DNA from: an uncultured Prevotellaceae bacterium
GTDB lineage: Bacteria; Bacteroidota; Bacteroidia; Bacteroidales; UBA932
Assembly (NCBI GenBank): GCA_900314395.1
Contig: OMVB01000090.1
Span: forward strand, 1-49,303
Direction: 5' to 3'
Length of the DNA: 49,303 nt
The position numbers were made by a program, and so were the translations under genes. A model generated the notes under the pieces. It worked only from the letters and a program-made list of their open reading frames with translations, did no database searches and was not told where the DNA came from. Each line of letters opens with the position of its first letter. Positions within the stretch are counted from its first letter, which is position 1. Of the stretch, positions 13,469 through 31,200 are shown in pieces.

Positions 13469-14315
13469 ATTGCCTGCAGAGGAAGCAGTGAATAGTGTTT
13501 TTCATTAGCATGGCGATGGTCATGGGGCCTACGCCGCCGGGAACGGGAGTTATCCAGCCGGCAACAGGCTCTGCGGATGCGAAGTCTACGTCGCCACAGA
13601 GTTTACCCTCTGCGTTGCGGTTCATTCCAACGTCGATAACCACGGCGCCGGGCTTAATCATTGAGCCGTCCACCAGGCCTGCCTTGCCAACTGCAAGGAT
13701 AAGGACATCGGCCGTGCGGCAAACTGCACCAAGGTCTGCTGTGCGTGAGTGGGCGATGGTAACGGTTGCGTGACGGTCCAGGAGCAATTTTGCAACGGGC
13801 TTGCCGACGATGTTGCTGCGGCCGACCACAACTGCGTTTTTGCCTTTGAGTTCATAGCCGATGCTGTCTATCAGTCGCATGATTCCGGCTGGTGTGCAGG
13901 GTACGATGCAGTCTTTTCCAAGCCATAGGCCTGCAACGTTTCCAGGATGGAAACCGTCTACATCCTTCTCACGGGATATAGTGTCAATGACTTTTTCTTC
14001 GTCGATGTGTTTGGGAAGCGGCAGCTGTACCAGAATTCCGTCGACAAGAGGGTCATTGTTAAGGTCTACAATCTGCTTCAGAAGGGCTTCCTCAGAGATG
14101 TCTGCAGGGAGTTCGATGAGTTTGGACTCCATTCCGGTGTAAGCGGCGGCTTTCACTTTATTACGGACATAGACCTGGCTGGCGGGGTTTTCTCCGACGA
14201 TGATTACAACCAGGCAGGGTTTACGGCCGTATTTTGCTTCCAGCTCAGGAACCTGGGCTTTGACCTCGTCTTTTACTACAACGCTAAGTGCTTTTCCATC
14301 AATTATTTGTCCCAT
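13467..14315 (-). CDS. folD: Bifunctional methylenetetrahydrofolate dehydrogenase/cyclohydrolase
   Basis: 282 residues, the normal FolD length. Visible motifs: the catalytic Lys in [13 protein letters not shown] near residue 54, [24 protein letters not shown], the NADP-binding loop [13 protein letters not shown], and [15 protein letters not shown] near the end. The enzyme converts 5,10-methylene-THF to 10-formyl-THF, the formyl donor for PurN and PurH encoded just upstream. It is the last gene of the purine cluster, 11 bases after purD, and ends at a terminator. Confidence 0.95.
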
Positions 14316-14326
14316 ATTTCTTAAAA

Positions 14327-15637: not shown

Positions 15638-15640
15638 CTT

Positions 15641-17170
15641 TTAATGTTTGAAGTGACGTACACCGGTGAACAACATTGTAATACCAAGCTCGTTGGCCTT
15701 CTTGATGGCATCCTCGTCGCGGATGCTGCCGCCAGGCTGAACGATGGTGGTAACGCCGTACTGTGCAGCAAGGGCTACAGTATCGTCAAACGGCAGGAAA
15801 CCGTCGGAAGCCAGAACCAAATCAGAAGTAAACCCCGCATTCTTTGCCTCCTCAAGGGCGATAAGAGCCGAACCAACGCGGTTGGTCTGCCCGGCACCAA
15901 TGCCGATGGTATGATTGTCGCGGACAACAGCTATCGCATTGGATTTCACGTGCTTGACAATCTTCCAGCCAAAGTTGGCATCGGCAAGCTGGGCAGCCGT
16001 AGGCTTAACCACGGTAACACACATACCGGGAACAACCTCCTCTACCTGAGTATCAAGCTGCTGTGCAAGCAGGCCGCCGTTCACGCTGATATACTGGGAG
16101 ATAGGCGCAGAAGAAGGAGTCATATCCACCTGCATGACGCGAAGATTCTTCTTGGTGGCAAGAATCTCCAAAGCCTCCGGAGTATAAGAAGGCGCAATCA
16201 CAATCTCCAGGAAAATAGGCTTCATGCCACGGGCGACATCGGCGGTAAGCTCACGGTTAACACCAACAATTCCACCGTAAATACTAACCTTGTCGGCCTC
16301 GTAAGCAGCCTGCCAGGCCTCCTCTATAGTCTTGCCAACAGCCGCGCCGCAAGGATTCATATGCTTAAGCGCAACGCAGAAAGGCTCCTTGAAGTCACGG
16401 AGCACGTTAAGAGCCGCATTGGCATCCTGTATATTATTGTAAGACAGTTCTTTACCCTGAATCTGCTTAGCAAAGGCAAGCGAATAAGAAGCAGGCTCCC
16501 GGGCAGCATAGAACTTGGCGCTCTGGTGGGGATTCTCTCCATAGCGAAGTCCCTGCTTAATGTCATACTCAAGGAACAACTTCTCCGGAAGACCGGCCTG
16601 TGCACGCATATAAGTAGCAATGCAAGCGTCGTACTCTGCCGTATGCGTATAAGCCTTTGCAGAGAGCTTGAGACGGGTTTCGTCAGAAGTAGAACCGTTT
16701 GCGCGAAGCTCTTCCAGGACAGTTCCATAATCGGCCGGATCGCAGACAATTGTCACATCCTTCCAGTTCTTGGCCGCACTGCGAACCATAGAAGGCCCGC
16801 CGATATCGATATTCTCAATAGCATCTTCCAGCGTCACACCCTCCTTGGCGATGGTCTGACGGAAAGGATAGAGGTTTACGCACACCAGCTCGATAGTCTG
16901 GATGCCGTTCTCCTTGAGGGTTTCCATGTGGGCGGGAACGTCCCTGCGGGCAAGAATACCGCCGTGCACCTTGGGATGAAGGGTCTTTACGCGGCCGTCG
17001 CAAATCTCCGGGAAGCCGGTTACTTCACTAATGCCGATGGTTTTAACTCCCTTGCTCTCAAGCAGTTTCTGGGTTCCACCTGTAGCAATGATTTCCCATC
17101 CGAGGTCTACGAGTCCCTGAACAAACTCAACAAGACCCGTTTTGTCACTTACACTGAATAAAGCTCTCAT
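15641..17170 (-). CDS. purH: Bifunctional AICAR transformylase/IMP cyclohydrolase
   Basis: 509 residues. The N-terminal MGS-like IMP cyclohydrolase domain starts MRALFSVSDKTGLVEF and has IATGGTQKLL and DGRVKTLHPKVHGG. The C-terminal transformylase domain has LRYGENPHQSAKFY, the catalytic Lys-His pair in ALKHMNPCG and SDGFLPFDDTV near residue 435. It carries out the last two steps to IMP, using 10-formyl-THF supplied through FolD. Its ATG overlaps the purN stop codon by one base. A 601-codon open frame on the opposite strand is only a shadow of this gene. Confidence 0.96.
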   Translation of the reverse strand: MRALFSVSDKTGLVEFVQGLVDLGWEIIATGGTQKLLESKGVKTIGISEVTGFPEICDGRVKTLHPKVHGGILARRDVPAHMETLKENGIQTIELVCVNLYPFRQTIAKEGVTLEDAIENIDIGGPSMVRSAAKNWKDVTIVCDPADYGTVLEELRANGSTSDETRLKLSAKAYTHTAEYDACIATYMRAQAGLPEKLFLEYDIKQGLRYGENPHQSAKFYAAREPASYSLAFAKQIQGKELSYNNIQDANAALNVLRDFKEPFCVALKHMNPCGAAVGKTIEEAWQAAYEADKVSIYGGIVGVNRELTADVARGMKPIFLEIVIAPSYTPEALEILATKKNLRVMQVDMTPSSAPISQYISVNGGLLAQQLDTQVEEVVPGMCVTVVKPTAAQLADANFGWKIVKHVKSNAIAVVRDNHTIGIGAGQTNRVGSALIALEEAKNAGFTSDLVLASDGFLPFDDTVALAAQYGVTTIVQPGGSIRDEDAIKKANELGITMLFTGVRHFKH

Positions 17171-17730
17171 TATTTTATAAGTTTTTTAATTGTTTCTATA
17201 TAAAGCCGATGCTCGATTTTCTGTCCGATCCGATGCACCTCTGCCGGGTCGCTGCCTTCGTAGGGGAAGGCTTCCTGAGCGATGATCCTGCCCCCATCCA
17301 GTTCAGAATTCACCCAATGGATGGTAATTCCATATACCTTGACGCCATAAGCGACTGCATCTTCTACTGCATGAGCGCCTTTGAACGATGGCAGTAGTGA
17401 CGGATGAATATTGATTATTTTGCCTTCATATGAGCCCAGAAGGACATCGCCTACTATCCTCATGTACCCGGCAAGGCAAACCAAGTCAATCCTCTCTGTA
17501 TCAAGAACTTGGACTATCTCTTTTTCATACTCTGCCTTTGAAGCATACTCCTTTGGATTAAACACGAAAGTCTTAACCCCGTACCGCTCCGCCTTCTCAA
17601 TCACGGCAGCCCCCGGCCTGTCGCAAACCATTACAGCCACCCTCGCCTTCAATACACCATCCGCACACGCCTTCGCTATCGCCTCAAAGTTCGTCCCCGT
17701 CCCACTCGCAAATACCGCTAACTGTTTCAT
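17170..17730 (-). CDS. purN: Phosphoribosylglycinamide formyltransferase (GAR transformylase)
   Basis: 186 residues. The opening MKQLAVFASGTGTNFEAI is the phosphoribosyl-binding loop; the formyl-folate catalytic region is INIHPSLLPSFKGAHA (Asn and His of the N-H-D triad), with the Asp in SELDGGRIIAQE. It transfers formyl from 10-formyl-THF to GAR. It overlaps purM by 4 bases at its start and purH by 1 base at its end, so translational coupling is likely. Confidence 0.95.
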   Translation of the reverse strand: MKQLAVFASGTGTNFEAIAKACADGVLKARVAVMVCDRPGAAVIEKAERYGVKTFVFNPKEYASKAEYEKEIVQVLDTERIDLVCLAGYMRIVGDVLLGSYEGKIINIHPSLLPSFKGAHAVEDAVAYGVKVYGITIHWVNSELDGGRIIAQEAFPYEGSDPAEVHRIGQKIEHRLYIETIKKLIK

Positions 17731-18758
17731 TTTAGAATTATGTTAACACCTTCTGTATCAGTTACTTTGCCAATAACGGAAGCCCTTTCTCCAGCGGCCT
17801 CAAGGATAGAAATAACCTTGGAAGCATCGGCAGCATCAACAACCGCAATCATTCCAATACCCATATTGAAAATATTGAACATCTCACGGTGCGGCACATT
17901 ACCCCACTTCTCCAGCATCCTGAAAACAGGCAGAATCTCCCAGGAGCCCTCTGTAATCTCAAGGCCCTGGCCAGGCTGCAGGACACGCGGAATATTCTCG
18001 TCAAAACCGCCGCCGGTAATATGGCAGATACCGTGAACATCGCACTCACGAATCACAGAAAGCATCTGCTTTACGTAGATCTTAGTAGGAGTCAGGAGCA
18101 CCTCTCCAAGAGTGCGCCCGCCAAACTCCGGGATAACATCGGAATATGAAAGGCCCGCATCGGCAACAATCTTACGCACAAGGCTGAAGCCATTGGAATG
18201 CACTCCGCTGGAAGCCACGCCAACCAGGACATCGCCAATCTTAACTTTGCTTCCGTCAATCAGTTTAGACTTCTCAACTACACCGGTAGTGTAACCCGCA
18301 ATATCATATTCGCCATCGGCGTACATACCCGGCATCTCAGCGGTCTCGCCGCCAACAAGGGCACATCCGGCCTGGCGGCAGCCCTCTGCAACACCTGCCA
18401 CGATAGCCTCCACCTTGGCAGGAACATTGTGTCCAAGAGCTACATAATCCAGAAAAATCAGAGGCTCAGCGCCCTGCGCAAGAACATCGTTCACACACAT
18501 CGCAACCGCATCAATGCCGATGGTATCATGTTTATCCATCGCAAAAGCAATCTTAAGCTTGGTGCCCACACCGTCGGTACCGCTCACCAGGACCGGTTCC
18601 CTGACACCCAGGGCCGAAAGGTCGAACATACCTCCAAATGAGCCGATGTTTCCCATGCTGCCAAGCCTTGAAGTGGATGCAACATGCTGCTTGATTCTGC
18701 GTACAACCTCGTAACCTGCCTCCAGGTTAACGCCTGCATTTTCGTAAGTCTTAGCCAT
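17727..18758 (-). CDS. purM: Phosphoribosylformylglycinamidine cyclo-ligase (AIR synthetase)
   Basis: 343 residues. Typical PurM motifs are LVSGTDGVGTKLKIA near residue 55, DAVAMCVNDVLAQGAEP, GGETAEMPGMY near 137, ASSGVHSNGFSLVRKI, and HITGGGFDENIPRVL near 245. It closes the imidazole ring of AIR with ATP. It begins 5 bases after purF and ends in a 4-base overlap with purN. Confidence 0.96.
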   Translation of the reverse strand: MAKTYENAGVNLEAGYEVVRRIKQHVASTSRLGSMGNIGSFGGMFDLSALGVREPVLVSGTDGVGTKLKIAFAMDKHDTIGIDAVAMCVNDVLAQGAEPLIFLDYVALGHNVPAKVEAIVAGVAEGCRQAGCALVGGETAEMPGMYADGEYDIAGYTTGVVEKSKLIDGSKVKIGDVLVGVASSGVHSNGFSLVRKIVADAGLSYSDVIPEFGGRTLGEVLLTPTKIYVKQMLSVIRECDVHGICHITGGGFDENIPRVLQPGQGLEITEGSWEILPVFRMLEKWGNVPHREMFNIFNMGIGMIAVVDAADASKVISILEAAGERASVIGKVTDTEGVNIILK

Positions 18759-18763
18759 ATAGT

Positions 18764-20125
18764 TTAGTCGTTATTTTCAATTTCACTTTCATAAAGTAGG
18801 GTGGGATACTCGCCCGTGAAACAGGCCTGGCAGGGATCAGCGCAGCCAAAGCAGGAATCGCGGGTAGATTCAGGGCTAAGATAGCCCAGCGAATCCGCTC
18901 CGATGGCGGCGCAGGCTTCCTCCAGCGTTCGGTTGCTGCACAGGAGTTCCTCCGGGGTGGAAGTATCCACGCCGTAATGGCAGGTGTACTTCATCATAGG
19001 GCTGGCGATTCTCACATGAACCTCCGTTGCACCGGCCTCGCGGAGCAGCTTCACAATCTTGAGGGAAGTGGTTCCGCGGACGATGGAATCATCCACCAGC
19101 ACTATCCTTTTGCCGTTAACGATGCTGCGGACAGGAGAAAGTTTCATCTTTACTCCAAGTTCCCTCATAGACTGTACCGGCTGGATGAAGGTACGGCCAA
19201 CATATTTGTGCTTGACGAGTCCCATCTCATAAGGGATGCCGCTCTCTGCGCTGTAACCCATGGCGGCGCTAAGGCTGCTCTCCGGCACACCTACAACGAT
19301 ATCGGCCTCTACAGGGCACTCACGGTAAAGACGGCGGCCGGCCTCCATACGGTAGGCGTGAACGTTGCAGCCGTCAATGTCGCTGTCCGGGCGGGCGAAG
19401 TAAATGTACTCCATCGCGCACATGCGATGACGGTTGAAACGGGAATACAGCGTACCACGGATGCCTTTTTCATCCATGCAGACAATTTCCCCCGGCTTGA
19501 CGTCGCGGACGAACGAGGCGCCCATGATTTCAAACGCGCAGGACTCGCTGCTCACTACATATCCGTCTCCGAGTTTTCCGATGCAGAGGGGCTTGATGCC
19601 GTATTTGTCCCTGCATGCGTAAATGCGGTTCTTGGTCATGATGATGAAGGTAAATCCGCCTTCCATCATGTTCAGTGCCTTGACCATCATCTGGATTCGG
19701 TCTACCTTGCCCGTTTTCTTGATAAGGTGCGCAAGAAGCTCGCTGTCGGTATCGGTCTGGAAAATGATACCGTTCTTTTCCAGGAATTCCGCAATCTGGC
19801 GGGAGTTTATCACGTTGCCCTCCCCGGCAATGGCGAAGTCTCCGGAATAATGGCGGAAAAACAGCGGGTCAACGTTGTCCAGACCCGATTTTGACACATT
19901 TGAATACTTTACGGAGCCGATTCCAAGGCTGCCCTTTAGCTTGCCCACCTGGCCGTTGGTGAAGATTTCGTTCAGCAGGCCCAGGCCGCGGTAACGGTAG
20001 GCCTCCCCCTTTTCATCGAAGGTGGCGATTCCGCCGCCTTCCTGGCCACGGTGCTGGAGGTTGTGCAGGCCGTAGTAAATGTACGTGGACGCGTCTTTTA
20101 CGCCGTAAACACCAAGAAGTCCCAT
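18764..20125 (-). CDS. purF: PurF-type PRPP amidotransferase with a degenerate glutaminase site
   Basis: 453 residues. It aligns well with the B. subtilis type: YYGLHNLQHRGQEGGGI (residues 17-33), the phosphoribosyltransferase loop LVDDSIVRGTTS, and Fe-S-type cysteines in RHRMCAMEYIYF, KYTCHYGVD and the C-terminal CxxC. The glutaminase nucleophile is missing: the family's CGVFG N-terminus corresponds to MGLLG, so the initiator Met stands at the Cys position. Other changes are Lys73 for the conserved Arg (SVKYS instead of HVRYA), and Glu102 for the oxyanion Asn (AGEGN instead of HNGN). Asp127 remains. There is no propeptide and no upstream in-frame Cys before a stop. I infer ammonia-dependent PRPP amidation; a glutamine-using PurF elsewhere in the genome is possible. 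Confidence 0.88.
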   Translation of the reverse strand: MGLLGVYGVKDASTYIYYGLHNLQHRGQEGGGIATFDEKGEAYRYRGLGLLNEIFTNGQVGKLKGSLGIGSVKYSNVSKSGLDNVDPLFFRHYSGDFAIAGEGNVINSRQIAEFLEKNGIIFQTDTDSELLAHLIKKTGKVDRIQMMVKALNMMEGGFTFIIMTKNRIYACRDKYGIKPLCIGKLGDGYVVSSESCAFEIMGASFVRDVKPGEIVCMDEKGIRGTLYSRFNRHRMCAMEYIYFARPDSDIDGCNVHAYRMEAGRRLYRECPVEADIVVGVPESSLSAAMGYSAESGIPYEMGLVKHKYVGRTFIQPVQSMRELGVKMKLSPVRSIVNGKRIVLVDDSIVRGTTSLKIVKLLREAGATEVHVRIASPMMKYTCHYGVDTSTPEELLCSNRTLEEACAAIGADSLGYLSPESTRDSCFGCADPCQACFTGEYPTLLYESEIENND

Positions 20126-20126
20126 A

Positions 20127-20849
20127 TTACTTTTCTTCCAATTGTTTCAGTCTTTCATAAACAGTCCTGTAAGAGGCCACAACGTCGCTAAGGTCGTAGC
20201 GGAAGCGGTCTTTGTCAAGTTTCTCCCCTGTTGCTTCATCCCACATGCGGCAGGTGTCGGGGCTGATCTCGTCGGAGATGATAATGGCTCCGTTATCCGA
20301 TGCGCGCCCGAACTCCAGTTTCATGTCTATGAGCTCGATTCCGGCTTTGTGAAGCAGCGAAGTGAGTATTTTATTGGCTTTGAGAGCCTGTTTGTGCATG
20401 TATTTTAGCTCGTCGTAGCTGGCCAGGCCAAGTGCGGCGGCATGGTCTTCGTTGATGAAGGGATCGTCCAGATCATCGTTGTTATAGCGGAGCTCGACGA
20501 TGGTATTATTGCCGCGGAAGCCTTCTTCTACGCCGATCCTCTGCGCCAGCGAACCGGCCAACCTGTTGTGGACGATTATCTCCAGGGGGATGATTTCTAT
20601 CTTGCGGCAGAGCTGCTCACGGTCGCCGGTTACCTCTACGAAGTGGGTCTCCACTCCGTTTTTATTGAGGTTGTCCAGCAGGATTGCCGATATCTGGTTG
20701 TCGAGCGTGCCTTTTCCTACGAAGCGGGCCCGCTTGATGTTGTTGTAAGCGACGGTCACATCCTTGTAGCGGAAGATGACCTTATCGGGGTCGTCGGTGG
20801 CGAATACTTGTTTTTCGTTTCCGTCGAATATTATTTCTCCCTTAATCAT
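20127..20849 (-). CDS. purC: SAICAR synthetase paralogue 1 (E. coli type)
   Basis: 240 residues, collinear with E. coli PurC. It shows IIPLEIIVHNRLAGSLAQRIG near residues 85-105, DDLDDPFINEDH near 127, ELIDMKLEFGR near 180 and the C-terminal ISPDTCRMWD and DKDRFR. The family signature normally has Arg where this protein has His (IVHNR rather than VVRNR). The enzyme joins aspartate to CAIR. The gene is 2 bases downstream of purL and one base upstream of purF. A second, different PurC is encoded at the head of the operon, so one of the two may have a special role. Confidence 0.88.
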   Translation of the reverse strand: MIKGEIIFDGNEKQVFATDDPDKVIFRYKDVTVAYNNIKRARFVGKGTLDNQISAILLDNLNKNGVETHFVEVTGDREQLCRKIEIIPLEIIVHNRLAGSLAQRIGVEEGFRGNNTIVELRYNNDDLDDPFINEDHAAALGLASYDELKYMHKQALKANKILTSLLHKAGIELIDMKLEFGRASDNGAIIISDEISPDTCRMWDEATGEKLDKDRFRYDLSDVVASYRTVYERLKQLEEK

Positions 20850-20851
20850 TT

Positions 20852-23800
20852 TTATACTTTTTTAAAATATTTTACGGCATTGTCAAAAATAGATTGCTGA
20901 CGGTTGCCGGAAATGTTTTTGAAAAGATTGGGCTCGAAGCGCTCACTGTGTCCCATTTTGCCAAGAATGTGACCGTCGGGGCTTAGGATACCCTCTATAT
21001 CGTAGTGGGAACCGTTAGGGTTGTCGGTGTAGCGGAAGGCAACCTGACCGTTCGCAAAGAGCTCGCGGGCCAGGGCTTCACTTACAACAAACTTGCCCTC
21101 ACCGTGGCTGAAAGCAATCTGATGCTTCTCTCCTTTCTTGAAACTGCTCAGCCAAGGGGAAGCGACAGATGCAACCTCCGTTTCTGCAATGAGCGAGATA
21201 TGACGGTTGATGTCGTTCCTGAAAAGCGTAGGCGAACTCCCGTTCACGCTGCCGCATTTTCCGTATGGCAGGAGTCCGCTCTTAACAAGGGCCTGGAAGC
21301 CGTTGCAAATACCCAGGATAAGGCCTCCACGTGCCTGGAGGGCAGATATTGCTTCGCTAATCTTTGCATTGCCGATAACATTTGCGATGAACTTGCCGCT
21401 GCCGTCCGGCTCGTCTCCGGAGGAGAAGCCGCCGCAGAAGGCAAGGATGTGAGAGTCGCCGATGGCCTTAGCCAGGGCGTCGATGGACTCAAGGACAGCC
21501 TCCGGGGTAAGGTTGCGGAAAATAAAGGGCTTGACGGTTGCTCCGGCCTTGCGGAAGGCCTTTGCAGTATCGTAGTCGCAGTTGCTGCCGGGGAAAACGG
21601 GCAGGCATACAACAGGATGCTCAACAGGCTCCCCTTTGTACTTCATATTATCGTCATTGACGGCTTTACCGGAAACCCCCGGCGCAGGCTCATTAAAGAG
21701 AGGCTTTACCTTGGCAGGATAAAGCTTCGCATAACGGCCTTCATATGCAGCCTCAAGGGCCTTCATGTCCAGTTTTTCCCCGTTGATGCAAGCGGCATCG
21801 GGCGTAACTGTACCAAGTTTTACGGCTGCCGGATAATCCAGCTCGCAGGCAGACTCAACAACCAGTGAGCCGTAGCCAAGACTGAACAAAGCATCCTCCG
21901 GGACGGTCACGTCAAAGCCAAGGCCATTACCCATCGACATCTTTACCAAAGCCTCTGCCACACCGCCGTAAGAAAGCGACCAGGCAGATACCACACTACC
22001 CTTTCCAATCTGGCCGTGCAGCCAGTTCCAATTGGCCGCAAGAGCCTCTGTATCAGGCATGTAGTCCTCCTTGGGAGCAGTGCGTACAAGGTAAATACTG
22101 TTTCCCGCTTTCTTGAATTCAGGTGAAATAACACTCCGGGCATCAACGGTAGTAATACCGAATGCTACAAGGGTCGGGGGCACGTGAATATGCTCAAAAG
22201 TACCGCTCATCGAGTCCTTGCCGCCGATGGAAGGAAGCCCCAGGGCCACCTGCATCTTAAGGGCGCCAAGGAGGGCGGCAAGCGGCTTGCCCCATGTATG
22301 GGCGTCGGATGTCATCCTCTCAAAATACTCCTGGTAGGAAAACCGCATCCGCGACCAGTCTCCGCCACAGCCCACGATCTTGGCGCAGGCCTCAACAACT
22401 GCGTAAGCAGCTGAGTGATAAGGGCTCCAGAGCGCAAGATCCGGATTGTAACCGAAGGCCATGGCACTGGCGGCATCTGTGTATCCGGCAACCGGGAACT
22501 TCTGGACAGACACCTGGGCCTCCGTTTTCTGGCGGCTTCCGCCGTAAGGCATAAGTACCGTAGAACGGCCGATGGTGCTGTCAAACATCTCTACAAGTCC
22601 CTTCTGTGAGGCAACGTTGGCAGAGCCCATGACGGACTCCATGCGCGCCTGCAGGCTGGCACCTTCCGGCTTGCGGACGAAGGGTGAACTGTCCTCTACC
22701 GCGCCGATGCAAGCTTTGGCGTAATGCTTTGCGCCCGCGCTGTCTATGAAGCTGCGGGCAAGGTCGCACACCAGTTTGCCATTCATATACATACGCATAC
22801 GCCCGCTCGCGGTGACATCGGCAACATGTGTAACCTCAATGTTGTCTGCGGAGCAGAGGGCTTTGAAGGCCGGCTCATCGGCGGCCTCAACGACAACGGC
22901 CATACGCTCCTGGGACTCGCTGATTGCCAGTTCCGTGGCGTTCAGGCCGGAATACTTGACGGGTACACGGTCCAGGTAAATGTCCAGGCCGTCCGCAAGC
23001 TCGCCGATGGCGACGCTCACGCCGCCGGCGCCGAAGTCATTGGACTTCTTTATAAGCCTTGTCACCTCCGGGCGGCGGAAAAGCCTCTGGAGCTGGCGTT
23101 CCTCCGGGGCATTTCCCTTCTGTACCTCGCTGCCGCAAGTCTCAAGGGAAGCCTCCGTATGCTCCTTGGAAGAGCCTGTAGCCCCGCCAATGCCGTCACG
23201 GCCGGTGCGGCCGCCAAGCAGCAGGATAACGTCTCCGGGAGCCGGGCTTTCACGGCGCACGTCGGCTGCCTTTACGGCACCCACGACCGCGCCAATTTCC
23301 ATTCTCTTGGCCGTGTAACCGGCTGAGTATATTTCTCTTACATGTGTAGTCGCAAGGCCTATCTGGTTGCCGTAGCTGGAATAGCCGGCGGCGGCTTTGC
23401 GGCTGATGCTCCTCTGGGGAAGCTTGCCGGGGATGGTATCGGCAACGGAAGCCAGGATATCTCCGGCGCCGGTAACGCGCATCGCCTGATAAACATATGC
23501 ACGCCCGGAAAGAGGGTCCCTGATAGCTCCGCCAAGGCAGGTGGCGGCACCGCCGAAGGGCTCTATCTCCGTGGGATGGTTATGAGTCTCGTTCTTGAAC
23601 TGGAGGAGCCACTTCTGGGGCTCTCCGTCTACGTCGATGTCTACGAATATGCTGCAAGCGTTGTTTTCCTCGCTCTGCTCAAGGTCGTCCAGTTTTCCGT
23701 GTGCCCTGAGCCATCTTGCGCCGATGGTGGCCAGTTCCATGAGGCAGAGGGGCTTTCCGGTGCGGCCCAGCTCTGCGCGCATTTCCTTCAGGAGCTCCAG

Positions 23801-24538
23801 GGAGGACTCAATCTCCCCCTTCATAAACGACTGGTCTACAGTTATTTCCTCAAGCTCAGAAGTGAAAGTGGTATGGCGGCAATGGTCACTCCAGTAAGTG
23901 TCCAGGATGCGGAGCTCCGTCTCTGACGGTTCGCGGCCCTCCGCCTTGAAGTAGCGGACTACCTCGCGGAGATCGTCCGTATTCATGGCCAGTCCATGGC
24001 TCTTGCAGAAGCCGCCGAATGCGGCCTCCGGCATGGAAGTGAAACCGGAAAGGTCCTCAAGGGGCTTGACGTCGGCGGTGCCGCCGGGGCTCAGGACGGA
24101 CAGGTCCTTGGCCCTGCATTCCACCGGGTTGATGAAATAGTGCCTGATGCGCTCCAGGATGGCATCGGAAACATCGTCCCCGAATACAAGGAGACGGGAG
24201 CTCTTTATAACGACATCGGCCGACGGGTCAATAAGGTGCACGCAGTCCAGGGCGGAAGAAGCCCTCTGGTCAAACTGGCCGGGGATGAACTCTACGGCAA
24301 TGTACTTTTTGCCGGCAAGGTCCAGGCTGTCGGTCACGGTGTCGGTCACGACCTCACCGAAGACACGGTACCTGCACGCCTCAACCAGGGCATCGGAAAA
24401 GCCGAAGAGGTCGTACACATTGATGAGTCTCAGGGAACCAAGGTTCAGGGAGAGGTTCTCGTTGAACTCTGCCAGCAGGCTGGCGGCTTCTACGCGGAAC
24501 CTTTCCTTCTTTTCTACGAACAATCGCTTGCTGCTCAT
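20852..24538 (-). CDS. purL: Phosphoribosylformylglycinamidine synthase, large single-chain form
   Basis: 1228 residues, the long PurL form in which synthetase and glutaminase are fused. An N-terminal PurS-like segment is followed by two AIRS-like halves (DTYWSDHCRHTTF near residue 215, NETHNHPTEIEPFGGAATC near 315, GGRTGRDGIGGATGSS near 445). The C-terminal class I glutaminase starts near residue 985 with VVCLPVFPGSNCDYDTA. Its triad is intact: Cys1078 in LGICNGFQ, His1197 and Glu1199 in GKMGHSER. It converts FGAR and glutamine to FGAM. This contrasts with PurF and CarA in this window, whose glutaminase sites look lost. The gene follows purE after a 50-base gap containing a hairpin. Confidence 0.96.
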   Translation of the reverse strand: MSSKRLFVEKKERFRVEAASLLAEFNENLSLNLGSLRLINVYDLFGFSDALVEACRYRVFGEVVTDTVTDSLDLAGKKYIAVEFIPGQFDQRASSALDCVHLIDPSADVVIKSSRLLVFGDDVSDAILERIRHYFINPVECRAKDLSVLSPGGTADVKPLEDLSGFTSMPEAAFGGFCKSHGLAMNTDDLREVVRYFKAEGREPSETELRILDTYWSDHCRHTTFTSELEEITVDQSFMKGEIESSLELLKEMRAELGRTGKPLCLMELATIGARWLRAHGKLDDLEQSEENNACSIFVDIDVDGEPQKWLLQFKNETHNHPTEIEPFGGAATCLGGAIRDPLSGRAYVYQAMRVTGAGDILASVADTIPGKLPQRSISRKAAAGYSSYGNQIGLATTHVREIYSAGYTAKRMEIGAVVGAVKAADVRRESPAPGDVILLLGGRTGRDGIGGATGSSKEHTEASLETCGSEVQKGNAPEERQLQRLFRRPEVTRLIKKSNDFGAGGVSVAIGELADGLDIYLDRVPVKYSGLNATELAISESQERMAVVVEAADEPAFKALCSADNIEVTHVADVTASGRMRMYMNGKLVCDLARSFIDSAGAKHYAKACIGAVEDSSPFVRKPEGASLQARMESVMGSANVASQKGLVEMFDSTIGRSTVLMPYGGSRQKTEAQVSVQKFPVAGYTDAASAMAFGYNPDLALWSPYHSAAYAVVEACAKIVGCGGDWSRMRFSYQEYFERMTSDAHTWGKPLAALLGALKMQVALGLPSIGGKDSMSGTFEHIHVPPTLVAFGITTVDARSVISPEFKKAGNSIYLVRTAPKEDYMPDTEALAANWNWLHGQIGKGSVVSAWSLSYGGVAEALVKMSMGNGLGFDVTVPEDALFSLGYGSLVVESACELDYPAAVKLGTVTPDAACINGEKLDMKALEAAYEGRYAKLYPAKVKPLFNEPAPGVSGKAVNDDNMKYKGEPVEHPVVCLPVFPGSNCDYDTAKAFRKAGATVKPFIFRNLTPEAVLESIDALAKAIGDSHILAFCGGFSSGDEPDGSGKFIANVIGNAKISEAISALQARGGLILGICNGFQALVKSGLLPYGKCGSVNGSSPTLFRNDINRHISLIAETEVASVASPWLSSFKKGEKHQIAFSHGEGKFVVSEALARELFANGQVAFRYTDNPNGSHYDIEGILSPDGHILGKMGHSERFEPNLFKNISGNRQQSIFDNAVKYFKKV

Positions 24539-24554
24539 AAAAATTAATTAAGAA

Positions 24555-24582
24555 GCCCACCGGCGCTTACCGCGGGGTGGGC
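24555..24582 (-). other. Intercistronic hairpin between purE and purL
   Basis: GCCCACC (24555-24561) pairs with GGTGGGC (24576-24582), with a possible inner GCG/CGC pairing. On the minus strand it is followed by a T-rich but interrupted tract, so it may act as a partial terminator, an mRNA-stability element, or nothing. Confidence 0.4.
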
Positions 24583-24588
24583 ATTATG

Positions 24589-25056
24589 TTATATAACCGT
24601 ATTCAAGACTTTGTCGCTCTGCTGCTGGCGGAATTCCTTCAGGCGCGCAGCGAGGGTCTCATCCTTAAGGGCCAGTATCTGGACCGCATAGAGAGCGGCA
24701 TTTTTGGCACCGTCGATGGCCATGGTGGCGACAGGGATTCCGGAAGGCATCTGAACGATGGACAGGAGTGAGTCCAGGCCGTTCAAGGCTTTGCTCTTTA
24801 CAGGGATGCCTATCACCGGGAGCGTGGTGAGGGCGGCAATCACACCCGGCAGATGCGCTGCGCCGCCGGCTCCGGCGATGATTATCTCACAGCCTTTGGA
24901 GGGGGCTGCGGCAACATACTCTGCAAGGGGACCGGGGTTGCGGTGGGCGCTGAGCACCTTTTTTTCGTACTCAATACCGAAGTCCTCCAGTGTAGTGCAG
25001 GCTGCGGACATTACGTCCCAGTCGCTGGCACTGCCCATGATTACGGCAACCTTCAT
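24589..25056 (-). CDS. purE: N5-carboxyaminoimidazole ribonucleotide mutase
   Basis: 155 residues. The protein opens [16 protein letters not shown], with the catalytic SAHRNP loop ([14 protein letters not shown]) near residue 40, [19 protein letters not shown] near 60-80, and [19 protein letters not shown] near 100. These are features of bacterial class I PurE, which works on N5-CAIR made by PurK. No purK occurs in this window. It is the second gene of the purine cluster, 3 bases after purC2. Confidence 0.93.
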
Positions 25057-25059
25057 GGC

Positions 25060-25740
25060 TTAAGCAAAGAAGAGTTTGGAAAGTGTCATAGGGTCGATGT
25101 ACTTGCCATCCTTGTAAACGCGCATGTTTCCGGAGGCAATTTCATCTATCAGCATCACGCTGCCGTCGGCTGCATAACCGAACTCGAACTTGATGTCATA
25201 GAGAACCAGGCCCTTGGCCTTGAGGTCGTCGGCTACAACCTGGGTGATCTTCTTGGTCATTTCCTTGATGGCGTCGTACTGCTCTGCGGTCATGATACCC
25301 AGGACGATGAGGCCGTCTTTTGTAACGAGAGGATCTCCCTTGGCGTCGTTCTTGAAGGTTGTCTCTACGTAAGCGGGCAGGTCTGCTCCTTCTTCAATGT
25401 ACTCTCCGTAGCGGCGGTAGAAGCTGCCGACAGCCTTGTGGCGGCAGATTACCTCGAGTCCCTTTCCGAATACCTTTGCGGGAAGGACCTCCATGGTAGT
25501 GTCTGCGAGGTTTGCACTTACATAATGAGTCTTGATGCCGGCAGCATTAAGTTTCTCAAAGAAGTAAATGGACATGCGAAGATTAACGTCGCCTACGCCC
25601 TCGATTGTGAGGCCTACAGAGTTCTCACCGGGATCGAACACGCCGTCCTTGCCAGTGCAGTCGTCTTTGAATTTGAGGAGATAATGCCCGTTGTCGAGTG
25701 CGAAGACATCCTTGGTCTTGCCAGTGTAAACACGTTTCAT
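25060..25740 (-). CDS. SAICAR synthetase paralogue 2 (short type)
   Basis: 226 residues from the ATG at 25740 ([15 protein letters not shown]); the upstream in-frame extension lies in the leader. It belongs to the SAICAR synthetase fold: YTGKTKDV phosphate-binding start, [21 protein letters not shown] near residue 100 with the signature Arg and Gly-Ser intact, [10 protein letters not shown] near 185, and [15 protein letters not shown]. It differs clearly from the PurC encoded further down the operon and resembles a compact PurC group I associate with Firmicutes. It is the first gene behind the purine promoter. Likely function: SAICAR synthesis or a close variant of it. Confidence 0.83.
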
Positions 25741-25780
25741 ATTAAAAGAATTAAGAGTGAATTCCAGTAACAACGGGTTA

Positions 25781-25811
25781 CAAAGTTAGGTCAGCAAATT
25801 GAACCTTGCAA
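25781..25811 (-). promoter_or_regulatory. Promoter of the purine operon
   Basis: Minus strand TTG (25811-25809), a 20-base spacer and TAACTTTG (25788-25781) match the Bacteroidota consensus. The element lies 41 bases upstream of purC2. I see no obvious purine riboswitch in the short leader. Confidence 0.65.
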
Positions 25812-25880
25812 GCAGTTTTCAAAAAAAATTTTAACTTAATCGTTTCAATAAAAATTCTTTAAAAATTTTGTAAAATTTAT

Positions 25881-25912
25881 TTGGAAGTTTGGCAATTTCC
25901 GCTGTACCTTTG
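25881..25912 (+). promoter_or_regulatory. Promoter of the pyrimidine operon leader
   Basis: TTG (25881-25883), a 21-base spacer and TACCTTTG (25905-25912) match the Bacteroidota consensus. The expected start of transcription is about 25918, leaving a leader of about 185 bases before pyrC. It faces away from the purine promoter about 70 bases to the left. Confidence 0.65.
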
Positions 25913-25918
25913 TACGAA

Positions 25919-26056
25919 ATGCGAGATAAAATGAAGCAAGCAAAAATGGGATTTTTTGGTTCAACTGACCTTAAAGCTTCCACTGTCATTCTGAGCGTAA
26001 GCGAAGAATCTCAGTTCGGGAGACTTCCCCTTTCTTCATCCTCGTTTTTAATATAA
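25919..26056 (+). CDS. Possible leader peptide upstream of pyrC
   Basis: A 45-codon frame begins with ATG at 25919, and in-frame ATGs also occur at 25931 and 25946. It ends with TAA at 26056, only 5 bases before the terminator stem in front of pyrC. The first ATG coincides with the predicted transcription start, so 25931 or 25946 is a likelier initiation point if it is translated. Its middle (TVILSVSEESQ) is encoded by a stretch resembling an interspersed Bacteroidota repeat, so the frame could be fortuitous. The geometry recalls the pyrBI leader of enterobacteria, also about 44 codons. Confidence 0.3.
   Translation: MRDKMKQAKMGFFGSTDLKASTVILSVSEESQFGRLPLSSSSFLI
25981..26014 (+). repeat. Dispersed-type repeat in the pyr leader
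   Basis: The stretch beginning CACTGTCATTCTGAGCG and ending GAAGAATCTCAG resembles a short intergenic repeat that I associate with gut Bacteroidota genomes. Only this copy of its type is in the window, so its status as a repeat rests on outside knowledge. Confidence 0.35.
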
Positions 26057-26061
26057 TTGCC

Positions 26062-26089
26062 GGCAGCCCTTCGGGGTTGTCTTTTTTTT
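26062..26089 (+). terminator. Intrinsic terminator 15 bases upstream of pyrC (possible attenuator)
   Basis: GGCAGCCC, a TTCG loop and GGGTTGTC form an 8-base stem with two G-T pairs, followed by eight T residues. It lies between the pyr promoter and the pyrC ATG, so transcription of the operon must read through it. Confidence 0.75.
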
Positions 26090-26103
26090 ATAATATACCG
26101 CCG

Positions 26104-27153
26104 ATGTTAGAATGTCTATCTTTTGCCGATGTCCACGTACACTTTCGTGAGCCCGGCTTCACCGCCAAGGAGACCATTCTTACGGGTACGCGCGCCGCTG
26201 CGCGCGGGGGATATACGATTGTATGTCCGATGCCTAATCTTTCCCCGGTTCCGGACAGCCCGGAGACCCTTGCCCTGGAGCAGGCGGCGATTGACAGGGA
26301 CGCTGTTGTAAGGGTTCTCCCCTACTGCTCCATTACGATGGGCCGAAAGGGGCTTGAGCTGGTGGACTTCGCCGCGCTCAAGGGCCGCTGCGTCGCCTTC
26401 TCTGACGACGGCTCCGGCGTCCAGAAGGAAGGCGTGATGCTGGCCGCCATGCAGGCAGCCGCGCGGGAGGACGTGATTATTGCCGCGCACTGCGAGGACG
26501 ACAGCCTGCCAGGTACGGACCCGCGCAGCGAGTGGGGCCAGATAGAGAGGGACCTGCGGCTTTGCGAGCAGACGGGCTGCCATTACCATGTCTGCCATAT
26601 TTCCACCAAGGAAAGCGTGCATCTTATCCGCGAGGCTAAGGCCCGCGGGGTGAATGTCACCTGCGAGACCGCGCCGCATTACCTGACACTCTGCGACCGC
26701 GACGTCCTGGACGACGGCCGCTTCCGCATGAATCCGCCGCTGCGCACTGCGGCAGACAGGGAGGCCCTGATCGAGGGCCTGAAGGACGGCACCATCGACG
26801 TGATTGCAACGGATCATGCTCCGCATACGGCAGAGGAGAAGAGCCGCGGCTTCGCCGGCAGCGCGATGGGCATTGTCGGCCTTGAGACAGCCTTTCCTGT
26901 CCTGTACACGCGCCTTGTGCGCGGTGGCAGGATAAGCCTTGAAAGGCTTGTGGATGCCATGACAAGCGCCCCTCGCCGCATCTTCCGCCTTCCCGACACC
27001 CCGCAGGACAAGGTCCTCATCGACCTTGACACCCCCTTCACCATCGACAGCGCCACCTTCGCCTCCAAAGGCCACTCCACTCCCTTCGACCACTGGCCTG
27101 TCTATGGTCGAATCGTAAAGACGATATTAAATGGTACAGTAATATATGAGTAA
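26104..27153 (+). CDS. pyrC: Dihydroorotase, short form
   Basis: 349 residues from the ATG at 26104; an in-frame TTG at 26077 was rejected because it lies inside the terminator stem. It is an amidohydrolase with metal-ligand motifs ADVHVHFREPGFTAKET (from residue 9), AAHCED, CHISTKES, and TDHAPH near 240, plus the substrate loop MNPPLRT. It ends with KGHSTPFDHWPVYGRI and a short strand. Class I dihydroorotases usually have about 50 more residues before the HVH motif, forming part of a beta-sandwich; here only about 11 precede it. It closes carbamoyl aspartate to dihydroorotate. Confidence 0.9.
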   Translation: MLECLSFADVHVHFREPGFTAKETILTGTRAAARGGYTIVCPMPNLSPVPDSPETLALEQAAIDRDAVVRVLPYCSITMGRKGLELVDFAALKGRCVAFSDDGSGVQKEGVMLAAMQAAAREDVIIAAHCEDDSLPGTDPRSEWGQIERDLRLCEQTGCHYHVCHISTKESVHLIREAKARGVNVTCETAPHYLTLCDRDVLDDGRFRMNPPLRTAADREALIEGLKDGTIDVIATDHAPHTAEEKSRGFAGSAMGIVGLETAFPVLYTRLVRGGRISLERLVDAMTSAPRRIFRLPDTPQDKVLIDLDTPFTIDSATFASKGHSTPFDHWPVYGRIVKTILNGTVIYE

Positions 27154-27204
27154 CCAGTATGTTAACCCTGTTGAAAATAATTTGAAGAACAAATAAGATT
27201 AGAT

Positions 27205-28287
27205 ATGAAACGGCCTGAAAGAAAACTAGTACTTGAAAGCGGAGAAGAATTCACAGGCATAGGCTTCGGCTCAACAGAACCAAAAGTCTGCGAAATCATC
27301 TTCAACACAAGCGTCGTCGGCTACCAGGAAATAATCTCCGACCCCTGCTACGCCGGCAAATTCATCGTCATGACCTATCCCCTAATCGGCAACTACGGCC
27401 TCACAAGCGAAGACTACGAATCACGCGGGCCCGCAATCGGCGGCCTCATCGTCCGTGAATGCTGCGACACCCCCAGCAACTTCCGCTACACCAAAACCCT
27501 GGAAGAAGAACTGGAAGAACACGGCATTCCCTGCCTCAGCGGCGTAGACACCCGCCTCCTGACCAAAATCATCCGCAAAGGAACCAAGCCGATGGGCGCA
27601 ATCGTAGACGCCGCAATGCCCAAGGAAGAAGCCCTTGAGCTCATTGCAGCCACACCCCGCCCCAAGGACCTGGTCCGCACCGTAAGCTGCAAGAAAAGAT
27701 GGGTCACCCGCACCTCAAACCACCGCTTCCACGTAGTGGCCGCAGACTGCGGAATCAAGTACAGCGTCATACACGCCCTCAATGAAAGAGGCTGCAACGT
27801 GACAATCGTGCCGTTCAACACACCTGCAAAAGACATACTCGCCTATGGCGCGGACGGAATCCTCCTCTCCGACGGCCCCGGCGCCGCAACGGAAGTACCG
27901 GAAATCCCCGCTCTCTTCGCAGCAATAAAAGGCAAAGTTCCCGTACTGGGACTTGGACTGGGAATGGAAGCCATCGGACTTGAATACGGAGCAAAACTGT
28001 CCGACATGGGCTGCGGCGTGCACGGAGACCATCCCGTAAAAGAGCTTGCATCGGGACGTATAAACATAGCCGTACTGGGGCAGAGCCACTGCTTCAAGGA
28101 CATCGAAGGCACCGCCCTCAAGCCAACCCACACAGCGGTCCCCGAAGGCTATGTACTGGGCTTTGAAAACACACAGGACAAGGTGCTGGGCATACAGTTC
28201 CACCCGGAATCCGGCCCCGGCCCCTACGACAACATCTCACTCTTCGACAAGTTCATTAAAATGATGGAGGACAACAGAAATGCCTAG
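27205..28287 (+). CDS. carA: Carbamoyl phosphate synthetase small subunit lacking the catalytic cysteine
   Basis: 360 residues. The N-terminal CarA domain is normal (LVLESGEEFTGIGFGS, FNTSVVGYQEIISDPCYAGK, GNYGLTSEDYESRGP). The class I glutaminase domain begins near residue 178. Where the family has GICLGHQ, this protein has GLGLGME (residues 249-255): the Cys is Gly251 (codon GGA at 27955), the His is Met254 and the Gln is Glu255. His333 and Glu335 (QFHPES) remain, while the SQNHG stretch is changed to GQSHC. Glutamine hydrolysis should therefore be impossible, and the subunit is probably structural, with ammonia as the nitrogen source, as in vertebrate CPS1 where the Cys is Ser. It overlaps carB by 8 bases. 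Confidence 0.92.
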   Translation: MKRPERKLVLESGEEFTGIGFGSTEPKVCEIIFNTSVVGYQEIISDPCYAGKFIVMTYPLIGNYGLTSEDYESRGPAIGGLIVRECCDTPSNFRYTKTLEEELEEHGIPCLSGVDTRLLTKIIRKGTKPMGAIVDAAMPKEEALELIAATPRPKDLVRTVSCKKRWVTRTSNHRFHVVAADCGIKYSVIHALNERGCNVTIVPFNTPAKDILAYGADGILLSDGPGAATEVPEIPALFAAIKGKVPVLGLGLGMEAIGLEYGAKLSDMGCGVHGDHPVKELASGRINIAVLGQSHCFKDIEGTALKPTHTAVPEGYVLGFENTQDKVLGIQFHPESGPGPYDNISLFDKFIKMMEDNRNA

Positions 28288-31200
28288 AAGAACTGACATC
28301 AAGAAAGTAATGGTAATAGGCTCCGGTCCTATAGTGATCGGACAGGCTGCGGAATTCGACTACGCCGGCACACAGGCCTGCCTGGCGCTCAAGGAAGAAG
28401 GCTACGAGGTTATCCTTGTCAACTCCAACCCCGCCACCATCATGACCGATACCCATATAGCCGACAAAGTCTATATGGAACCCCTTAAACTTGACTATAT
28501 AGCCAAGATAATCCGCTACGAGCGCCCGGACGCCCTTGTCCCCGGACTCGGCGGCCAGACCGGATTGAACCTGGCCGTTCAGCTTGCCAAGAAAGGCATC
28601 CTGGAGGAATGCGGAGTAGAGATCCTGGGCACCGACTTCACCGACATAGAAAAGGCCGAAGACCGCGAACTGTTCAAGGAACTCTGCCTCTCTATTGACG
28701 AGCCTGTCATCCCCTCAGAAATCTGCTACAGCGTAGAAGAAGGCGTTGCAGCCGCAGAGAAAATAGGCTATCCTGTAATCCTGCGCCCCGCCTTTACCCT
28801 GGGCGGCACTGGCGGCGGCTTCGCCTACAACGAGGAAGAACTCCGCGACATGATGCGTAACGCGCTCTTCCTCTCCCCTGTCCATGAGGTGCTGGTAGAA
28901 AAGAGCATCAAGGGCTACAAAGAAATTGAGTTCGAGGTGATGCGCGACCATAACGACACCGCCATCTCCATCTGCTCCATGGAAAACGTAGACCCTGTAG
29001 GCGTCCACACGGGCGATTCAATGGTAGTGGCACCAGCACAGACACTTACCGACAAAGAGTTCGAGATGCTGCGCACCAGCGCGCTCAAACTGATACGCGC
29101 CCTGCACATAGAAGGCGGCTGCAACGTACAGTTTGCACTTGACCCCCTGTCCTTCAAATACTACATCATAGAGGTTAATCCCCGAGTATCCCGTTCATCG
29201 GCGCTGGCATCCAAGGCCAGCGGCTTCCCTATCGCCCGCGTAACAGCAAAAATAGCCGTAGGACTCACCCTGGACGAGATTATGATAGCCGGGGCTCCCG
29301 CCTGCTGCGAGCCCGCAATTGACTACGTAGTCACAAAGGTAGCCCGCTTCCCCTTCGACAAATTCAGCGAAGCATCCAACGAGCTGGGCACCCAGATGAA
29401 GGCCACCGGAGAGGTGATGAGCATCGGCAGGACACTGGAGGAAAGCATCCTTAAGGCCATGCGTTCGCTGGAGGCCGGCTGCTGCCACCTGCACAAGAAA
29501 AAGTTCGACGACTGGACGGAGCAGCAGCTCCTGGACTACATCAGCAAGCCCACGGACGACCGCTACCATGCGATTGCCCAGCTGCTGCGCCTGAGGATAG
29601 ACCTTTCCCGAATCTACGACCGTACGAAGATAGACATGCTCTTCCTGGAGAAGATTTACAACATCGTCAGGATGGAGCGCCTTGTGAAGGCTACTCCCGG
29701 AGACATCGGCATTCTGGCGGAGGCCAAGCGCATGGGCTTCGGAGACAAGTTCATAGGGCAGCTCTGGGGCAAGTCAGAGGCCGATATCATCCGGCTCCGC
29801 TTTGCAAACAACATCGTCCCGGTATACAAGATGATAGATTCCTGCGCCGGAGAGCGCCAGACCTATGTCCCGTACTTCTACTCCACCTACGAGCAGGAGA
29901 ACGAGTCCCTGCCCAGCGTCCGCAAGAAGATTCTGGTACTGGGCAGCGGGCCTATCCGCATCGGACAGGGTGTGGAGTTCGATTATTCCACCGTCCATGC
30001 AATCTGGGCCATCAGGGAGGCCGGCTATGAGGCAATAATCATCAACAACAACCCGGAGACGGTATCCACGGACTACACAATCTCCGACAAACTGTATTTT
30101 GAACCGCTCACGACGGAGGACGTAATGAATGTGATCCGCCTGGAGCAGCCGGAGGGCGTTATCGTCACTCTTGGCGGACAGACGGCCATCAACCTGGCCG
30201 GACCGCTGGAGGAGTTCAATGTTCCGCTGATAGGCACGGGCCTTCAGGCTATCGACAACGCCGAGGACCGCAAGCTCTTCGAGGCTATCATGCGCCGCAC
30301 CGGAATCCGCCAGCCTAAGGCTCACGCTGTCACAAGCGTTGAGGAAGGCCTGAAGGCCGCACATGACATCGGTTACCCTGTCCTGGTGCGTCCGAGCTTC
30401 GTTCTTGGCGGCCGTGCGATGATGATTGTGGGTAACGACGACACTTTGAAGCATTATCTGCATAACGCGGTGGAAATCAATGAGAATTCCCCGGTGCTGG
30501 TGGACAAGTACATCCAGGGCAAGGAGACTGAGGTTGATGCCATCTGCGACGGTACCGATGTCTTCATCCCGGCCATCATGGAACATGTGGAGAGGACCGG
30601 CATCCACAGTGGCGACAGCATCAGCGTTTATCCGTCATTCAGCCTTAGCGACAAGGTTAAGAAGGAGATTATTGCCGATACTGTCAAGCTTGGCAAGGAG
30701 ATTGGCATCATCGGACTGTTTAATATCCAGTTCATTGTGGACAGCAATGAGGATGTTTATGTGATTGAGGTGAATCCACGTTCTTCCAGGACGGTGCCGT
30801 TTATTTCCAAGTCTACTGGTATTCCGATGGCGAAGATTGCAACGCGCGTCATGCTGGGCCATTCGCTTAAGGAGCAGGGCATTACAGAGGTTTATTTCCC
30901 TGAGCGCAAGCGTCATTATGTGAAGACTCCGGCTTTCTCCTTTGGCAAGATTAAGGGTATTGACACGTATCTTTCTCCGGAGATGAAGTCTACGGGCGAG
31001 GCTATCGGTTACGATAATTCCCTGACCAGGGCTTTGTATAAGTCCCTGCAGGCGTCCGGAATGGATGTAAAGCCTTATGGTACAATTCTTTGCACTATTG
31101 CCAACAAGGATAAGGCAGAGGCCTTGCCGCTGATCCGCCGGTTCTACAACCTGGGCTTCAACATTGAGGCGACCAAGGGTACTGCGGCGTTCCTGAAGGA

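Follow-up and report, generated by a model that had tools for sequence, protein, structure and literature searches.

PurF and CarA homologues without a glutaminase nucleophile in a Bacteroidales clade: probable ammonia-dependent enzymes of purine and pyrimidine synthesis

Results

Loss of the nucleophile in PurF and CarA

The DNA analysed here, referred to as the window, is a stretch of 49,303 nucleotides (contig OMVB01000090.1, assembly GCA_900314395.1) from an uncultured Prevotellaceae bacterium, in which a minus-strand purine operon and a plus-strand pyrimidine operon diverge at about 25.8-26.1 kb. Bacteria are usually described as drawing on glutamine for both nucleotide pathways, so that its level serves as a gauge of nitrogen. 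The first-pass annotation of the window claimed that PurF, in the purine operon, and CarA, in the pyrimidine operon, have each lost the nucleophile of the glutaminase domain. This proved correct: both losses are real, fixed in the clade and chemically unrelated. The features concerned are listed below, with conservation counted over the distinct alignment rows described further on.

18764-20125, minus strand: PurF (amidophosphoribosyltransferase) without glutaminase nucleophile; TIGR01134, 452.4 bits, and alignment to 1ao0
20123-20125, minus strand: ATG start codon where catalytic Cys1 would stand (MGLLGV against CGVFGI); Met in 83/83 distinct Cys-less rows
19907-19909, minus strand: Lys73 replacing glutamine-binding Arg73; Cys-less rows (n = 83) have Lys 77, Met 3, Cys 2, Gln 1
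19820-19822, minus strand: Glu102 replacing oxyanion-hole Asn101; Glu in 54/83 and Asp in 29/83 Cys-less rows, Asn in 40/40 Cys-bearing rows
27205-28287, plus strand: CarA (carbamoyl-phosphate synthase small subunit) without glutaminase nucleophile; NF009475, 333 bits, and TIGR01368, 310.1 bits
27955-27957, plus strand: Gly251 replacing catalytic Cys269; Gly in 20/20 linked CarA
27967-27969, plus strand: Glu255 replacing glutamine-binding Gln273; Gly and Glu paired in 22/26 Cys-less CarA rows, all of one clade

The window PurF spans positions 2-432 of the 432 in TIGR01134 and scores above the cut-off of 350 bits. Its phosphoribosyl pyrophosphate (PRPP) loop, VLVDDSIVRGTT, is unchanged, and the motif DDSIVRGTT is found in it and in 80/80 related loci. 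Set against Bacillus subtilis PurF (1ao0), CGVFGIWG has become MGLLGVYG, GHVRY has become GSVKY and HNGN has become GEGN, so that three of the five glutaminase positions examined are altered. We took the residue numbers and roles to be those usually assigned (Cys1, Arg73 and Asn101 in PurF; Cys269, Gln273, His353 and Glu355 in Escherichia coli CarA); on that basis the N-terminal Cys, Arg73 and Asn101 of an N-terminal nucleophile glutaminase are replaced by Met, Lys and Glu. A wrongly chosen start codon concealing a Cys was considered and rejected: the ATG is itself the codon at the Cys place, and an earlier start therefore cannot supply one. An AlphaFold2 model of the protein (predicted local distance difference test score, pLDDT, 84.7) matches the fold of 1ao0 over 452 columns with a template-modelling (TM) score of 0.91, the whole chain being covered. 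Judged from its residues, the window protein is a PurF homologue, yet no glutamine-hydrolysing amidotransferase.

The window CarA passes the TIGR01368 cut-off of 307.35 bits. The GICLGHQ of E. coli CarA reads GLGLGME, the His and Glu of the HPE motif are kept, and two of the four glutaminase positions examined are changed; the Cys269-His353-Glu355 triad and Gln273 thus correspond to Gly, His, Glu and Glu. Over the whole chain, its AlphaFold2 model (pLDDT 89.2) agrees with the structure 1cs0_B of E. coli CarA (TM score 0.91). The loop aligned with the Gly293 tunnel loop of E. coli is one residue shorter in 26/26 rows of the pyrimidine-operon lineage; this shortening is also seen in Cys-bearing rows, is not tied to the loss of Cys and supports nothing.

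Conservation across the clade

Related loci were taken as the best 80 of 430 by similarity to the window PurF, a sample that shows conservation within the clade, not frequency. All 80 loci are distinct and are titled Bacteroidales or Bacteroidia, save one Prevotellaceae. Rumen, reticulum, omasum or abomasum is named in 24 of the titles, 31 more carry RUG names, which we take to denote rumen genomes, and 25 have neither. Met stands at the PurF Cys place in 80/80 of these loci and Gly at CarA Cys269 in all 20 CarA found within them; the Cys of PurL is kept in 78/79 rows, the remaining row having a gap. Sequencing or binning error as the source of the losses is rejected, since they are conserved across species.

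Alignments, trees, distances and substitution rates were restricted to rows with at least 250 aligned residues. Of the 124 distinct rows in the PurF alignment of fetched loci, 83 have no Cys, one is a fragment and the other 40 read C/R/N/G/D. Among the 103 distinct CarA rows 26 have no Cys: 22 have Gly with Glu at Gln273, three have Gly in other contexts and one has Ser. To fit a CarA tree built by a quick method, the Cys state has to change three times, and supported branches make two of these changes unavoidable. The pyrimidine-operon CarA lineage includes a member with the triad kept and Glu at Gln273 (locus L099), one with Cys kept and His changed to Tyr (L083), and two that read Ser/Cys (L080) and Gly/Asn (L079) at Cys269/His353. 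Two Cys-less CarA (L078, genome G019, and L081, genome G022) form a separate lineage. In another lineage, the CarA of L098 (G040) has its Cys and reads LPQ in place of HPE.

Selective constraint by domain

In Cys-less PurF the ratio of nonsynonymous to synonymous substitution rates (dN/dS) is 0.059 for the phosphoribosyltransferase (PRTase) and 0.173 for the glutaminase domain (83 rows, 1605 pairs), against 0.260 and 0.390 in Cys-bearing PurF (40 rows, 64 pairs). For CarA the N domain and the glutaminase domain give 0.113 and 0.215 in Cys-less rows (26 rows, 120 pairs), and 0.230 and 0.259 in Cys-bearing rows (77 rows, 246 pairs). The glutaminase domain therefore exceeds its partner 2.9-fold in Cys-less PurF and 1.9-fold in Cys-less CarA, against 1.5-fold and 1.1-fold in the Cys-bearing rows. 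Protein distances at matched divergence behave alike: the ratios of glutaminase to other domain are 3.3, 2.3 and 1.6 in Cys-less PurF against 2.0, 1.5 and 1.3 in Cys-bearing PurF, and 2.5, 1.8 and 1.3 against 1.1, 1.0 and 0.94 in CarA, where the Cys-less rows L078, L079, L080 and L081 were excluded from the group scored as lost. Compared with the synthase parts, the glutaminase domains are thus under relaxed constraint, and to a greater degree than in homologues that have the Cys. Low dN/dS together with these ratios argues that the Cys-less proteins are not decaying pseudogenes, the glutamine half being the relaxed one.

Cys-bearing copies in relatives

Whole-genome searches covered 51 genomes: that of the window (G000) and 50 of the genomes behind the 80 loci, hand-chosen with long loci favoured, so that all 51 have Cys-less PurF by selection. 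A Cys-bearing PurF, its Cys read in each case, is present elsewhere in 29 of them: 20 of the usual length, eight of a long type and one of the long type split over contigs (G103, its long PurF divided between two contig ends, was scored as positive). Cys-bearing CarA occurs in 34 genomes, Cys-less CarA in 23 and both kinds in 15; no CarA passes the cut-off in nine, one of which (G117) has a fragment. These figures do not fit a simple parallel loss as the first-pass annotation had it. A second, Cys-bearing PurF or CarA or both is found in 37/51 genomes and neither in 14/51. Eight of the 14 (G000, G091, G095, G096, G097, G130, G138, G139) have both enzymes in Cys-less form only, and the other six have no CarA. 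No Cys-bearing PurF was found in 22/51 genomes with a pur locus, and there the Cys-less PurF must therefore serve if purines are made.

The surroundings of Cys-type PurF were read in 19 of the 29 genomes and in three further ones. Among these 22 loci, 21 have at least one other gene of what we call the glutamine set within the fetched stretch, the exception (L236) being a contig of 6.8 kb; the neighbours are pyrG (16 loci), glnN (9), carAB (8), gltB (6), amtB (4) and asnB (4). The order is purF-dapL-gltD-gltB-glnN-asnB-amtB-pyrG-carAB in L084 and L105, glnN-gltB-gltD-pyrG-long purF-amtB-asnB in L266 and L267, guaB-guaA-carAB-pyrG-purF in L085 and purF-glnN-pyrG-carAB in L220. It seems, then, that the pur and pyr operons of the clade carry one set of the enzymes, an ammonia set, and that a second, glutamine set is optional. 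In L265 (G094), guaB, a guaA-like gene, pyrG, carA, carB, a purA-like frame and Cys-bearing purF lie together in one stretch, a further grouping of genes for glutamine-using enzymes. Part of the clade has no carAB between pyrC and pyrK (L114, L119, L120, L123, L134, L136, L140, L150, L152 and others); of those whose genomes were searched, most have a Cys-bearing CarA elsewhere and GltB, and many have AmtB.

Glutaminases and nitrogen genes of the window genome

The window genome (2.30 Mb, 187 contigs, 98.69% complete, 4.24% contaminated) yielded no second PurF: PF13522 at E <= 0.01 finds one place, the window PurF, which is also the single TIGR01134 match. Nor is there a second CarA, with one TIGR01368 match at E <= 1e-30; at 0.001 two weaker ones are added, GuaA and one that was not listed. 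PF00117 has four matches, namely PyrG, GuaA, the window CarA and a peptidase-like protein, and PyrG and GuaA have the nucleophile motif LGICxGxQ intact. The first-pass annotation, for which intact copies elsewhere would have undone the proposal, is upheld on this point by all four models. It also held that glutaminases are not lost in general, and this stands: a general loss is rejected, PurL (ICNGFQ), GuaA and PyrG all having kept their Cys. Its further suggestion, that glutamine control is removed from nucleotide synthesis, does not hold for the pathways as a whole, given the sites that these three enzymes keep.

The survey of amidotransferases that it called for finds GuaA and PyrG intact and, in profile searches of this 98.69% complete assembly, no match to GltB, AsnB or AsnA, nor to the ammonium transporter AmtB, for which it also asked. 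GlmS was not found with PF13522 or TIGR01134, where it should show; many relatives have frames of 600-650 amino acids with a matching N-terminal domain, which we named GlmS. Two glutamine synthetases and two NagB-type genes are present. The latter are two close matches on contig C135 (7925-10408; open frames of 648 and 265 amino acids) in a genome with no detectable GlmS. NagB, running in reverse with ammonia, could supply glucosamine 6-phosphate.

Neither pyrG (L219) nor guaA (L218) of the window genome has the other glutamine-set genes tested nearby. The pyrG contig, of 11 kb, is without the purF, carAB and glnN neighbours present in the close relative G092 (L220). On the reading favoured below, the window genome has lost the second, glutamine set or never had one.

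Layout of the two operons

The remaining genes of the locus were named from open reading frames and sequence reading, family models having been run for purF, purL and both purC in the purine operon and for carA and carB in the pyrimidine operon.

13467-25773, minus strand: purine operon purC2-purE-purL-purC1-purF-purM-purN-purH-purD-folD; similar order in relatives
20852-24538, minus strand: PurL with intact glutaminase Cys (ICNGFQ), an internal control; TIGR01857, 1647 bits
26077-35697, plus strand: pyrimidine operon pyrC-carA-carB-pyrK-pyrD-pyrF-pyrE-pyrB; present in relatives
28280-31468, plus strand: CarB, synthase subunit, with an 8-base overlap with CarA; NF003671, 1488 bits

Two genes for phosphoribosylaminoimidazole-succinocarboxamide (SAICAR) synthetase (PurC, PF01259) lie in the same purine operon, at 20127-20849 and 25060-25773 on the minus strand. 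They score 231.7 and 141.5 bits, and the second also adjoins purE in several relatives. No Rfam riboswitch was found in the window, where two transfer RNAs alone reached the gathering score.

Discussion

The PurF and CarA of the window are probably working and ammonia-dependent members of their families. E. coli PurF in which Cys1 is replaced by Ala or Ser is described as still using ammonia (PMC3261824). One could envision that the old ammonia path of both enzymes is fed with free ammonia from the ammonium-rich contents of the gut, the PRTase domain of PurF making phosphoribosylamine from PRPP and ammonia, and CarA-CarB making carbamoyl phosphate from bicarbonate, ammonia and adenosine triphosphate. 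The glutaminase domains would persist as a structural, non-catalytic shell. The Cys-less enzymes would then form the ammonia set within the pur and pyr operons. The glutamine set (Cys-bearing PurF with a fused CarAB or another Cys-bearing CarA), found in some genomes and not in others, probably comes into use when ammonia runs low. The first-pass idea of an adaptation to ammonia draws support from the ruminant-stomach titles (24/80, with 31 more RUG names) and from the relaxed glutaminase domains; the strict coupling of the two losses that went with it has to be given up.

Several observations weigh against our interpretation. E. coli carbamoyl-phosphate synthetase (CPS) is poor at using ammonia, and for this reason CarAB would need an adaptation. 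Absolute dN/dS is lower, not higher, in Cys-less than in Cys-bearing rows for every domain, in a data set with many nearly saturated pairs and with paralogs mixed among the Cys-bearing rows; it is the between-domain ratio alone, the measure used here, that points to relaxation. The absences rest on metagenome-assembled genomes (MAGs), and in at least two of the 22 genomes in which no Cys-bearing PurF was found (G106, G134) a contig ends within the glutamine cluster. That neither AsnA nor AsnB was found in the window genome fits a reduced or auxotrophic genome no less than it fits an ammonia specialist. In a wider sample of 55 genus genomes with completeness of at least 70%, Cys-less PurF occurs in 13 and Cys-less CarA in eight, and the two losses coincide in three (G000, G003, G032); in a fourth candidate, G023, the contig ends before purF. 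Strict coupling, and with it the co-occurrence that the first-pass annotation expected across genomes, is rejected. Among the 51 clade genomes 26 have Cys-bearing forms of both PurF and CarA, three of PurF only, eight of CarA only and 14 of neither (Fisher's test, 9e-5). One association counts in favour of our interpretation: AmtB, searched for along with glutamine synthetase in the 51 genomes and 23 others, is found in 13/29 genomes with Cys-bearing PurF and 0/22 without (Fisher's test, 2e-4, kinship uncorrected); AsnB was scored in 12 genomes, as against 14 with any match, two weak PF00733 matches (G096, G113) being set aside. When phylogeny is considered (independent pairs on a PurF/PurM/PurH/PurL tree) no association reaches significance, the median p for Cys-bearing PurF being 0.125 with Cys-bearing CarA, 0.5 with AmtB and 1 with GltB, from few pairs. 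A significant association with Cys-bearing CarA or with AmtB is accordingly not claimed.

Two other explanations were weighed. The Cys-less proteins might be pseudo-enzymes, acting as regulatory or structural partners of intact catalytic copies that the assemblies have missed. MAGs are incomplete, and Cys-bearing PurF and CarA do exist in 29 and 34 of the 51 clade genomes. Against this, the PRPP loop is retained and no part of the protein is under tighter constraint than the PRTase (dN/dS 0.059); no Cys-bearing PurF was found in 22/51 genomes, including the window's, which is 98.7% complete, and the pyrG contig of the window genome is without the glutamine-set neighbours of G092. We regard this explanation as improbable. 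It is also conceivable that glutamine is still used, with PurF or CarAB receiving ammonia in trans from a separate glutaminase. PurL, GuaA and PyrG retain glutaminase domains, and two-subunit forms are described in other families, as in the nicotinamide adenine dinucleotide (NAD) synthetase of Thermus (PMC3376133). Yet the PF00117 and PF13522 searches, which did not extend to other glutaminase families, leave no unassigned domain save the peptidase-like protein, and the old domains, still attached, would be expected to hinder docking. Delivery in trans seems very improbable.

A different kind of alternative is neutral erosion: in an ammonia-rich gut the glutaminase would be dispensable and would decay without functional specialisation. 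The pyrimidine-operon CarA lineage does look like a graded erosion (L099, L083, L080, L079). The separate Cys-less lineage of L078 and L081, the L098 CarA with Cys but LPQ for HPE, and the relaxation of the glutaminase domain relative to the rest point the same way. On the other side, an acidic residue is kept at PurF Asn101 in 83/83 Cys-less rows, the domains are of full length and dN/dS is still well below 1. The Gly and Glu pair of CarA (22/26) weighs little here, because it comes from one clade and the Glu also occurs in the Cys-bearing L099. Erosion as the whole story is possible, and we think it rather unlikely. It shares the use of ammonia with the reading that we favour, and the two are not exclusive; whether one speaks of adaptation or of erosion, both rest on ammonia use.

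It is tempting to go further than ammonia-dependent enzymes and to speculate that the clade has a nitrogen-source switch at the entry to nucleotide synthesis. Both committed enzymes would exist twice, once as an ammonia set belonging to the pur and pyr operons and once as a glutamine set placed among genes that make or use glutamine (pyrG and glnN, joined in some cases by gltBD, amtB and asnB). A number of lineages, that of the window included, would have dropped the glutamine set and become obligate ammonia users at both entries. The acidic residues that replace those of the old glutamine pockets (Glu or Asp for Asn101 of PurF, Glu for Gln273 of CarA) might then be a convergent new ammonium-binding port that feeds the old tunnel. 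We put this forward tentatively, as a proposal from sequence comparison that may well not hold in full.

If ammonia-dependent PurF and CarA are the correct interpretation, a clade feeding both pathways from free ammonia would be a natural experiment on the role of the glutaminase half, growth would be tied directly to gut ammonia, and family names such as "glutamine-hydrolyzing" would mislead for these genes. The first-pass annotation knew of no description of the combination, and in the open-access literature we found none of a bacterial PurF plus CarA; its PurF part has prior art in the PurF' of Crenarchaeota, for which the authors proposed in 2011 an ammonia-dependent enzyme, untested there (PMC3261824). 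Like the window PurF, PurF' is a Cys-less PurF linked to purine genes, and it is paired with a Cys-bearing PurF in the same genome, as in part of our clade. The difference is that PurF' is archaeal, each genome having one of each, whereas here no Cys-bearing PurF was found in 22/51 genomes; the section on PurF' in that paper holds no CarA counterpart. A second PurF-like family (L289-L300, from genomes of the same genus and the same order) starts M(G/S)GxFG without Cys and has an intact DDSIVRGTQ in 12/12 members read. It is distinct, scoring 165-204 bits to TIGR01134 (n = 12) against 434-465 for Cys-less PurF. Because both PurF' and this family exist, the PurF half of our findings is not new in kind. 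What is new, as far as the open-access literature shows, is that CarA of the adjacent operon has lost its nucleophile too, that in some genomes both enzymes were found in Cys-less form only, and that relatives have a clustered glutamine set.

For CarA the nearest analogy is with human CPS1, described as having Ser294 in place of the Cys, taking ammonia only and keeping the inactive domain (PMC4655335). In both, the catalytic Cys of a class I glutaminase is replaced and the domain retained. Unlike CPS1, the window enzyme is a two-subunit bacterial CarAB of a pyrimidine operon in which Cys to Gly accompanies Gln273 to Glu, and its CarA shares more of its sequence with E. coli CarA (34-35%) than with CPS1 (30%). 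NAD synthetase provides another parallel, its lineages differing in a glutamine-using or ammonia-using form of one enzyme; its ammonia form, as described, has no glutaminase domain, whereas here the domain is present without its nucleophile (PMC3376133). As for the glutamine set, Prevotella ruminicola 23 has an amtB, glnK, asnB, glnN-2, gltBD cluster that responds to ammonium (PMC5552732); statements in that paper differ on the direction of the response, and we draw no support from it. Unlike that cluster, the one in part of this clade adds Cys-bearing PurF, PyrG and fused CarAB. Ammonia-dependent PurF and CarA in these operons would give PurF' and CPS I their counterparts among bacteria.

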